From a virus, in IMG/VR virus record IMGVR_UViG_3300028610_000087, positions 1 to 47,466 of that record: 47,466 nt of DNA; one strand, 5' to 3'. The position numbers and the translations under genes were made by a program. The notes under the pieces were generated by a model that saw nothing but the letters and a program-made list of their open reading frames with translations, had not been told where the DNA came from and did no database searches. Below, one piece after another: positions 20,430 through 31,784 of this stretch; position 1 is the first letter of the stretch; every line of letters begins with the position of its first letter.

Positions 20430-20729
20430 TTAAGGTGCGATCTTGCGCAGTTTGAACAGAGAAATGTAAGCTCCCGCCTTGTCGTCCGCGCACGTAAAAG
20501 GGCAGCTACCTTTTAGTAGCTTGAATAGTGGGCAAGAACTATCATCGTCCTGGTATAGCTCGATAACAGATCCTCGTGTAAAGGTGTGAGCAAACTCCTC
20601 TACGATAAAGATATCACCAATCGCATACCCCTGCTCCTCACAAGGTGTCTGAGGGACAGGCTCTGGTGTCTTAAGTTCTTGAAGTTCCTTGATGATACGG
20701 TCGATCTTATTGTTAGTTGATTCACACAT
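20430..20729 (-). CDS. Hypothetical protein (99 aa)
   Basis: 99 residues. A helical N-terminus (residues 1-25), then a proline-rich linker, and a beta-rich C-terminal part with four cysteines (CEEQ, CPLF, CPFTC) that could bind metal. The ATG overlaps the primase-helicase stop by one base (TAATG), so it is translationally coupled. No family recognised. Confidence 0.6.
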   Translation of the reverse strand: MCESTNNKIDRIIKELQELKTPEPVPQTPCEEQGYAIGDIFIVEEFAHTFTRGSVIELYQDDDSSCPLFKLLKGSCPFTCADDKAGAYISLFKLRKIAP

Positions 20730-21484
20730 TAGAATCTGCTCCTATAGTTAGTATCTTTCTTTTGTTCTTGTTCATCATAGCCAGCAGGCTTAGGTACCTT
20801 CCTCATACGTCCTGTCTTACCATCGAAGTGGAGGTACTCGCTGTCTCCAGTTCTTCCTGTAAATCTACACTTAAGGACTGTAACCTTGCTTGTATTAGCG
20901 CAATAGCTGTCACCATGCTGTTGATTTCTTGAGAGTGCAATGACGTCCCATGACAATTGCTTAAGTGTTCCAGAGCCTCGCAAGTCGTCAAGACTAGGCG
21001 TAGCGCCTTGTTCAAATGATGGCGCATTGGGTCCGCCGGAGGTCTTTTTAAGATGGACGATGAGGAAGATGACAAGTTCTAACTCCTTGACTAGCTTGGC
21101 TAGCTTAGTCATGATAGTATCTATACGTTCTCTTTCTCCACCTTGGGCTGCATACTCAGAGACAATGATGGACAGGTGATCCAAGTAGATGAATTTACAT
21201 CCTTGGGCTGCGAAGTATCTGATCTTAGAGAAGAGGTTTGAATCATCCATTCCTCCAAAGTGATCGTAGCCAAACCACCGTCCTGATCCGTAATAGTAAT
21301 CGAAGGCTTCTCGTTCTTCTTCATCAGACACCTGTACATCAGGAAGTTCAATACGCTTATTAAGATGGATAGACATGAGACCAGCCATAGTATCACCAGC
21401 ATCCTCTTCGAGTGCTATGTCAGCGAACTTAAAGTCGGTGGTCTTGTGGTAGTGGTCCTTCAACTCACGCATGAACTGCGTCTT
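20729..21484 (-). CDS. Primase-helicase, exon 2 (helicase domain)
   Basis: 251 codons after the intron. It begins KTQFMREL, completing the Walker A motif left as GSGMG in exon 1. Further T7 gp4-type helicase motifs: IYLDHLSI (Walker B region), FLIVHLKK (H3), SGTLKQLSWDVIALSRNQQ (H4), and CRFTGRTG (arginine-finger region). This part forms the hexameric 5'-3' helicase at the fork. Taken alone a start at MRELKDH would lack the P-loop, so the piece makes sense only as a spliced exon. Joined to exon 1 it gives 593 residues, against 566 in T7. Confidence 0.9.
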   Translation of the reverse strand, partial: KTQFMRELKDHYHKTTDFKFADIALEEDAGDTMAGLMSIHLNKRIELPDVQVSDEEEREAFDYYYGSGRWFGYDHFGGMDDSNLFSKIRYFAAQGCKFIYLDHLSIIVSEYAAQGGERERIDTIMTKLAKLVKELELVIFLIVHLKKTSGGPNAPSFEQGATPSLDDLRGSGTLKQLSWDVIALSRNQQHGDSYCANTSKVTVLKCRFTGRTGDSEYLHFDGKTGRMRKVPKPAGYDEQEQKKDTNYRSRF

Positions 21485-22263
21485 CGCTTATGTTACGTGT
21501 GCAGGCTAGGCACACTCTGCATGTTTCCATGCAGGCCAGACTATATCATGAACCTCTAAGCATTGAGGTCCCTTACCATTTCGAGTCCGCCGTTTGGACC
21601 CTACTCCCAATCACGGGATAGTCGTTGCACGTTAGAAATACTCTTTCGAGATATGTCTCCAAGTCTTACCTCTCTTAATATCTTCTGGGATATATCGAGA
21701 GATATCCATGACTTGTGAGATAGACCTGACAGACAGGCCCTCACCAAGCAGATCGCAAATAGTTTTTACTTGCTGTTCGCTGACCTTGGTGAATCTTTTC
21801 TGGAGGTTGTTGGCATGCGCATGGTATTGATTTATGCTTTGCGTACACCACTCTAGATTCTCTACAGTATTGTTTTGCTTGTCACCATCGAGATGGTTGA
21901 CTTGAGGGAAGCCATCAGGATTCTCTAAGTATGCTTGTGCGACTAGTCTGTGGATAAAAAATTTCTTAGGTTTGTTATCCATGCACAGGGTTACTCGGAG
22001 ATACCCACAAGAATTCGTATCGGTCTTAAGGATACGGCCTGTCTTCTTGTTGATGACGGTTCCTTCATAAGCTACGATGTAGTTGGGGTAATCTGTTATA
22101 GTTTTCATACTGTTTCAGACAGCATTCTTTCTATAAAGTTCCCCATGAACCGGAGTATTTCTCTTCGCTCAGGATTGCCCTCGTCTCTACACGTTAGGGG
22201 TTCCCCTGAATTAGATAAGTTATTCGATATATGTTACCACATAAAGGGGCTAAACGTTAGTCC
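21485..22263 (-). ncRNA. Group I intron in the primase-helicase gene
   Basis: 779-nt intron between GGT (Gly342) and AAG (Lys343). The exon ends in U and the intron ends in G, as group I introns require. The last exon bases GGGU can pair with GCCC about 17 bases into the intron (P1, with U-G at the splice site). Core elements on the minus strand: GGCAATCCTGAGC (P element, 22167-22179), P7 strand GACTATC (21617-21623) and its partner GATATAGTC (21539-21547). An HNH gene lies in a loop between. Self-splicing and mobility are expected from family knowledge, not shown here. Confidence 0.9.
21632..22108 (-). CDS. Intron-encoded HNH homing endonuclease
   Basis: 158 residues. NUMOD4-like start (YPNYIVAYEGTVINKKTG), HNH core with FIHRLVAQAYL (about 50-60) and VNHLDGDKQNNT (about 69-80), then LEWCTQ and a C-terminal helix-turn-helix-like region. 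Lies wholly inside the group I intron, between its P and P7 core elements, the I-HmuI-like arrangement. Should cut intronless copies of the primase-helicase gene near the Walker A codons, promoting intron homing. Confidence 0.92.
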   Translation of the reverse strand: MKTITDYPNYIVAYEGTVINKKTGRILKTDTNSCGYLRVTLCMDNKPKKFFIHRLVAQAYLENPDGFPQVNHLDGDKQNNTVENLEWCTQSINQYHAHANNLQKRFTKVSEQQVKTICDLLGEGLSVRSISQVMDISRYIPEDIKRGKTWRHISKEYF

Positions 22264-23289
22264 ACCCATTCCGCTGCCGGAGGTAATGGTGACGAGTGAA
22301 CCTAGTCTAGTGCCATATGTCTTGGCATTGATGTCGGTCCATGATTCGGGGTAGGGGTAGCATACTTTATTCTTGCCATGCTTGAAGCGGTCCCAACATT
22401 CACCATAGTTGATGATGTTGTCAGGCATGTATGCGCGTGCGTGCTTCATGACATCCCAATAAAGTTCATGGGACTTGCCTTTCAGCACCATATCATTGGC
22501 ATCCTTCTCCGAGAACTTGGCAATGTAAACCTTGCCTGCTAGGAGGGGACACACATCATCGACTGCTGCTTGACCAGGATCATCTTGATCGAAGCATAGG
22601 ATAATTTCATCGTACGTCTGAACGAAATCAAAATTTTCTGAGATATCTTTTGAAGCTGAAGCGCTTCCATTTGAGAGGGAGACTACGGCGGGGTTCCAGT
22701 CCATGCTGGAGTGTAGGCGGAGGGTCTGGTACAGTGCGAGGGCATCACACTCACCTTCAGTGATGAAGAGTTTCTTGCCATTAGGTTTGCATACTGACTG
22801 ACCAAAGAGTTCTACGCCTTGGCCATCACCTACAGATCGGAAGTCTTTAGTACTTACAATACGTTTCTTAAAGCTAGAGAGTTTGTTTTTCTTAGTGCGG
22901 GGATAGTAGTGGTGGGTGATGGTGTGACCATCAGTAGGAGAGAGAGCAACACGAACATCGAAGTGTTCACATGTCTCTTTGGTGATACCGCGATCATGTA
23001 GCGCGCGTATAGGAAAGGACAGACACTCATCTAAGATAGTCTGCTTATCTTTGGTGGGGATAGTACCGGTAATCGGGGTGCTTCGTGCAGGTACCACCTC
23101 GGAAGTTTCCTTATTCGCGTGAGTAGACACGCTATGACTCACACCTATACGGTATGGATCAGGATCGAAGTGACCGCACACGAAGCACGTAGCATTGTGT
23201 GTTCCATCATCTTGTTTGTACACAACAAGACCATCCGATGAACTACACTTATCATTAGTGCATGCACGTTTTTCTATTACTTGTCCCAT
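22264..23289 (-). CDS. Primase-helicase, exon 1 (primase and start of helicase)
   Basis: 342 codons from ATG 23289 (ribosome site AAGGGA) to the splice point. Zinc finger with C10, C15, C35, C38. TOPRIM primase core with FITEGECDALAL (about 174-185) and ILCFDQDDPGQA (about 227-238). The helicase linker then leads to ITSGSGMG at residues 335-342, the first half of the Walker A motif. Makes RNA primers and, when spliced, fuses to the helicase. If unspliced, nine intron codons (GLTFSPFMW) follow and translation stops at 22234, giving a 351-residue primase without helicase. Confidence 0.93.
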
Positions 23290-31711: not shown

Positions 31712-31784
31712 TCCAACCAACAGGACTCGAACCTGTATCTCAGCCTTCGTTAGCACTGGCTCTATCCAATTGAGCTATGGTTGC
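31712..31784 (-). tRNA. tRNA gene with irregular anticodon arm (Arg-ACG- or Val-AAC-like)
   Basis: Acceptor GCAACCA pairs with TGGTTGG at six of seven positions (G1-G72 mismatch). Then TA, a D-arm GCTC...GAGC with the usual AATTGGATA loop, and a perfect T-arm ACAGG-TTCGAGT-CCTGT. The anticodon region reads CAGTG-CTAACGAA-GGCTG: an eight-base loop, one base longer than the CTACGAA loop of arginine ACG tRNAs, or AAC if counted from U33. No CCA is encoded. Best preserved tRNA in the window; function uncertain. Confidence 0.6.

Follow-up and report, generated by a model that had tools for sequence, protein, structure and literature searches.

Evidence for a mobile group I intron that interrupts the Walker A motif in a T7 gp4-type primase-helicase gene of an uncultivated virus

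Introduction

The window analysed here (the whole stretch of 47,466 nt, IMG/VR virus record IMGVR_UViG_3300028610_000087) carries a gene for a primase-helicase whose ATP-binding loop is interrupted by an insert. An earlier note, made from the sequence alone, had read the insert as a group I intron that carries an HNH gene in its loop and splits the P-loop between GSGMG and KT. This raises the questions of what kind of element the insert is, where exactly it begins and ends, and whether insertion at this site is a single event. Group I introns that carry HNH genes have long been known from DNA-metabolism genes of phages (PMC3984707). Group I introns and inteins prefer conserved sites (PMC2814812), and P-loop inteins in phage terminases have been published (PMC5050341).

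Results

The two exons form a complete primase-helicase

The features of the locus are listed in Table 1. Toprim_2 and Toprim scored above the Pfam cut-offs in exon 1, and exon 2 matched the T7 gp4 structures 1cr0, 1e0j and 6n7i. DnaB_C matched exon 2 alone with 37.1 bits, beginning at profile position 112; after the exons had been joined the score was 52.2 bits and the match was nearly complete (profile 6-251 of 255). The joined product thus combines Toprim and DnaB_C with a restored Walker A motif, GSGMGKT, as in T7 gp4-type primase-helicases. Both exon ends given in the earlier note, ...ITSGSGMG and KTQFMREL, were present in the sequence, and the T7 gp4-like protein of 593 residues that it had proposed was reproduced by removing the intron.

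Table 1. Coordinates of the split primase-helicase gene, the intron and its predicted structural elements in the window.
Feature	Position	Strand	Description	Evidence
Exon 1	22264..23289	(-)	342 codons for the primase half and the beginning of the helicase domain; last residues ...GSGMG	ORF, Toprim_2/Toprim, empty-site relatives
Exon 2	20729..21484	(-)	Remaining helicase domain, 251 codons and stop, starts KTQFMREL	DnaB_C, T7 gp4 structures
Group I intron	21485..22263	(-)	779 nt, starts GGACTAAC, ends AAGCG	RF00028 35.2 + 21 bits, intron-less homologues, same-site relatives
In-frame stop	22234..22236	(-)	Nine codons into the insert, unspliced reading	ORF 22234-23289, 351 aa
HNH homing-endonuclease gene	21632..22108	(-)	158 aa, NUMOD4 and HNH_3, in P6 loop	Pfam, PHROG 59, 1u3e
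P1 exon strand	22264..22270	(-)	AAUGGGU, one internal mismatch, U.G pair at splice site	
P1 internal guide sequence	22244..22250	(-)	GCCCCUU	Guide matches local exon in six related introns
P3 5' strand	22214..22219	(-)	CUUAUC	
P3 3' strand	21572..21577	(-)	GGUAAG	Covariation across nine distinct helices
P4 5' strand	22205..22209	(-)	UCAGG	
P4 3' strand	22169..22173	(-)	CCUGA	
P7 5' strand	21617..21623	(-)	GACUAUC	
P7 3' strand	21539..21547	(-)	GAUAUAGUC	
P8 hairpin	21551..21570	(-)		
P9 hairpin	21517..21534	(-)	CUGCAUG-GAAA-CAUGCAG	

Intron-less relatives fix the junction to the base

The intron lies in phase 0, after the Gly codon and before the Lys codon of Walker A (GSGMG/KT; the slash marks the insertion). 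The nearest relatives, as judged over exon 2, are intron-less, and their exact empty site defines the junction to a single base. The uninterrupted motif GSGMGKTQFMREL was found at exactly the junction of the window in an IMG/VR contig (L005, 91% identical over exon 2) and in the Zobellviridae phage GX1-k141_326647 (L003/PQ867844.1, 88% identical over exon 2). The splice sites cannot slide, since the last bases of exon 1 and intron differ (T and G), as do the first bases of intron and exon 2 (G and A). An exact empty site in intron-less homologues is what marks a mobile intron, and it supported the P-loop insertion point of the earlier note. Occupancy of the site is rare, as the intron was absent from all homologues of the helicase search with a readable site (81/81).

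The synonymous positions at the junction were variable, with 27 distinct 15-mers among the homologues. Together with the introns of relatives that lie 4 nt away (see below), this variation indicates that the protein motif leaves the DNA target free to vary. We dropped a possible link between U as the last exon base and the presence of the intron, since T was also found in 73/81 intron-less homologues. A co-conversion tract beside the junction, considered in view of the lower identity to L005 upstream, was unsupported by the counts of identical synonymous codons (8/17 versus 106/188).

The insert has the core of a group I ribozyme

The Rfam model for group I introns, RF00028, was the check named by the earlier note. 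On the minus strand it matched both halves of the intron, the 3' half with 35.2 bits and the 5' half with 21.0 bits (in a 1.2-kb search the E-values of the halves were 5.3e-7 and 0.0091), but both matches stayed below the gathering score of 50. These low scores are likely due to the HNH gene, whose 477 nt interrupt the match to the model at the P6 loop. For the same reason a default Rfam scan of the window at the gathering threshold, which did not list the intron, was not treated as a negative. The sole match above the gathering score in that scan was a tRNA gene (31712-31784, minus strand, 39.3 bits, RF00005). Two related P-loop introns settled the class as group I because they exceeded the RF00028 gathering score: the intron of RCIP0089 (L266), which has no HNH gene and is inserted 4 nt upstream, with 75.8 bits, and the intron of L306, which has only a remnant ORF and lies at the same junction, with 64.8 bits.

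P3, P4 and P7 showed conserved pairing, with GACUA/UAGUC as the core of P7; P1 contains a U.G pair, and the intron ends with G. The U at the end of exon 1 and the terminal G of the intron could be read directly in the sequence, where the strands pointed out before, GGCAATCCTGAGC, GACTATC and GATATAGTC, were also present. Among relatives, nine distinct P3 helices were found, in which the own strands formed 6.8 of 7 pairs compared to 4.3 for exchanged strands. The pairing was equalled in 0/50000 strand permutations for P3, in 229/50000 for P4 and in 24/720 for P1; these counts take related introns as independent and should therefore be read as indications and not as exact values. In the window a P10 with five pairs could form, but it is not conserved among the relatives. 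The poor conservation of P10, the internal mismatch in P1 and the RF00028 scores below gathering were counted against our interpretation. The assignment of the insert to the group I introns was nevertheless supported by the covariance-model matches, the empty sites, the ORF-less relatives above the Rfam threshold and the compensatory pairing.

The intron loop harbors an intact HNH gene

The HNH gene that the earlier note had placed in the intron loop is an intact ORF. Its HNH_3 domain reached 34.8 bits, above the Pfam cut-off of 24.8, and NUMOD4 was just under its cut-off (20.7 bits versus 23.4). The protein matched PHROG 59 and aligned to the solved HNH homing endonuclease 1u3e. From established knowledge of this family, the predicted HNH protein should nick intron-less alleles and drive homing. 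In the predicted fold of positions 22090-22140 (minus strand) the HNH start codon lies within a hairpin (AUGCUGU-CUGAA-ACAGUAU), which could restrain translation of HNH.

A tree of HNH proteins neither showed nor rejected a single clade for all HNHs from the same site (AU p = 0.18). The HNHs of Asterion (L185), KZY1-k141_1938105 (L265), L304, L305 and L314 grouped together (97/95), and the HNH of the window was unplaced. Since the ribozyme of the window is nearest to the KIL1 intron (see below), the intron core and the HNH gene may have separate histories.

Introns occupy the Walker A codons of other phage helicases

The nearest HNH relatives among annotated phages were located in split primase-helicase genes. 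An intron at the identical junction (G/K, phase 0) was found in at least nine other genomes, comprising Zobellviridae, Seunavirus PVP-SE1 and metagenomic phages. Three of the carriers are Asterion, KZY1-k141_1938105 and PVP-SE1 (L085); a DNA pattern scan of IMG/VR added L304, L305, L306, L310, L314 and L316. In all nine the exon ends with ...G and continues with K followed by S or T, the intron ends with G, and a P7 strand is present. An intron ORF with an HNH-like start was found in all except L306.

A second insertion point, 4 nt upstream (GT/A GGT AAG), was occupied in vB_Kp_Z1 (L182), ULINTec6/7 (L183, L186) and RCIP0089, four records from Klebsiella and E. coli T7-like phages. The intron of Roth32 (L355) is apparently also at this point, and L333 may be another case, although its contig ends. 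At each point the guide sequence suits the local exon, with GCCCAU or variants for AUGGGU and GCGCC for GGCGU. A shift of the splice site or two nearby invasions are both possible origins of the upstream introns with their guide refitted to the new exon end. Close intron-less relatives were available for PVP-SE1 (SSE-121, 94%), Asterion (Klyazma, 96%) and ULINTec6 (ULINTec4, 96%). A search pattern derived from the first two introns returned only PVP-SE1, plus chance matches without P7, and HNH-based searches of viral contigs gave no additional helicase case among those checked.

The split helicases of KZY1-k141_1938105 (PQ867851.1, 665-2816), Asterion (PV891806.1) and RCIP0089 (OR532883.1) were deposited as two or three primase-helicase or hypothetical genes, and in KZY1-k141_1938105 the intron ORF itself is annotated as primase/helicase. 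In two further T7-like phages, Vibrio phage JSF38 (L267, about 1190-1900) and Erwinia phage VL73 (L268, about 1180-1900), an HNH group I intron splits gp4 in the primase half, and the parts are annotated as separate genes. Such annotation of split gp4 genes as two or three genes is frequent and hides the complete helicase.

Comparison with known introns and inteins

The intron in gene 13 (helicase/primase) of PVP-SE1 (GU070616/NC_016071), deposited as a joined gene, shares with the window the identical junction in a homologous helicase (GPSGGG/KST), a similar guide sequence GCCCCUU, 78.8% identity across the aligned intron parts and a NUMOD4/HNH-type loop gene that is 39% identical. It is longer (934 nt), as is its HNH protein (235 aa), and it resides in a very different host phage (Seunavirus). 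The Klebsiella phage Asterion and KZY1-k141_1938105 (Zobellviridae) have the junction ATGGGT/AAG, HNH genes and P3-P9, but the 5' part of their introns is shorter, the P-loop is the variant GAAQKMGKS, and the genes are annotated as two or three. In the gp4 genes of ULINTec6/7, vB_Kp_Z1 and RCIP0089 the ribozyme lies within the same motif and related HNHs are 41-43% identical, whereas the insertion 4 nt upstream falls inside the codon preceding the last Gly, and the RCIP0089 copy lacks the HNH gene.

The nearest ribozyme core was found in the Pseudomonas phage KIL1-type intron (83% over 194 nt, identical P3), which differs in that its loop has no HNH gene and its host is not a helicase. Without such a gene, the KIL1 intron scored 71.9 bits with RF00028, which fits the HNH gene as the likely cause of the low scores in the window; the KIL1 intron lies between annotated genes (L004, 2461-2694), and its host exons are not obvious. 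HNH introns of DNA polymerase and terminase genes (SPO1 I-HmuI type, CB7) belong to the same class of intron plus endonuclease and reside in other host genes; splicing of a CB7 intron was demonstrated by RT-PCR (PMC7344957). In Klebsiella phage FKP3 (L087), group I introns at 1655-1902 and 2741-2954 split the gene for the large terminase subunit, and only the second contains an HNH gene. P-loop inteins, e.g., mycobacteriophage TerL1-a, are likewise self-splicing mobile elements in the Walker A motif of a phage ATPase (PMC5050341). They act by protein splicing between Lys and Thr, while in the window RNA splicing would occur between Gly and Lys.

Discussion

Our analysis established where the intron begins and ends, that its ribozyme helices are conserved and its HNH gene is intact, that relatives have the empty site, and that the junction is occupied repeatedly. 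Very probably, a mobile group I intron splits the T7 gp4-type primase-helicase gene, splices itself out and spreads by HNH-driven homing. Splicing, endonuclease activity and homing are deduced from the sequence. With the 5' splice site of the transcript positioned in P1 through pairing with the internal guide sequence, a bound guanosine would attack after its U. Exon 1 would then attack after the terminal G, and joining of the exons would yield GSGMGKT and the full helicase. The NUMOD4/HNH protein is expected to nick or cut intron-less helicase alleles near the junction, and repair would copy the intron in. Homing would take place between phages during co-infection.

An insert in a P-loop of an uncultivated virus record could also be an intein, since these are common at P-loops (PMC5050341), or an assembly artefact. 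We regard both as practically negligible and rejected them: the helicase reading frame meets a stop nine codons into the insert, and the insert has a group I core, while introns at the same junction in nine other genomes, cultured phages among them, are independent cases that speak against an artefact. It is improbable, though less so, that spliced and unspliced RNA are both used and that splicing sets the ratio of primase to helicase. The same stop would end the unspliced frame after a complete primase half of 351 residues, and in T7, primase-containing and primase-less forms of gp4 coexist; the nearest relatives, however, manage without any intron. Such dual use is an addition to self-splicing by a group I intron and not an alternative ribozyme class.

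Between these two in probability, and still very unlikely, is an element that no longer splices, with the exons translated separately as associating primase and helicase fragments, as reported for NrdA of Aeromonas phage Aeh1. Besides that non-splicing HNH insertion, one CB7 intron was RT-PCR-negative (both cited in PMC7344957), and an ATG (21472) is present four codons into exon 2. A product from this ATG would, however, be without the Lys-Thr of Walker A, and there is no obvious ribosome-binding site ahead of it. Moreover, P3, P4 and P7 are intact and conserved, as are the U and G of the splice sites, which fits a self-splicing intron.

What is new is that the P-loop intron is not a one-off; the recurrent targeting of the P-loop is the interesting part. 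In searches of the open-access literature, we found no paper that describes repeated group I intron insertion at the Walker A motif of helicases. We lean towards the view that group I introns have invaded phage replicative helicases repeatedly, and partly independently, with the Walker A codons as a hot spot and with the guide sequence adjusted to the codons at the site. If true, two insertion points 4 nt apart are used over T7-like phages, Zobellviridae and Seunavirus, and they would be to RNA splicing what the P-loop intein sites are to protein splicing. It is plausible that the intron persists because mutation can hardly remove a conserved catalytic site, which is also the published general explanation for persistence (PMC2814812). 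The P-loop introns provide a clean case in which RNA-splicing and protein-splicing parasites share the same type of motif, the loop with which a phage motor protein binds ATP. The cultured pairs with and without the intron make the preference for conserved catalytic sites, and the benefit for persistence, testable by co-infection.
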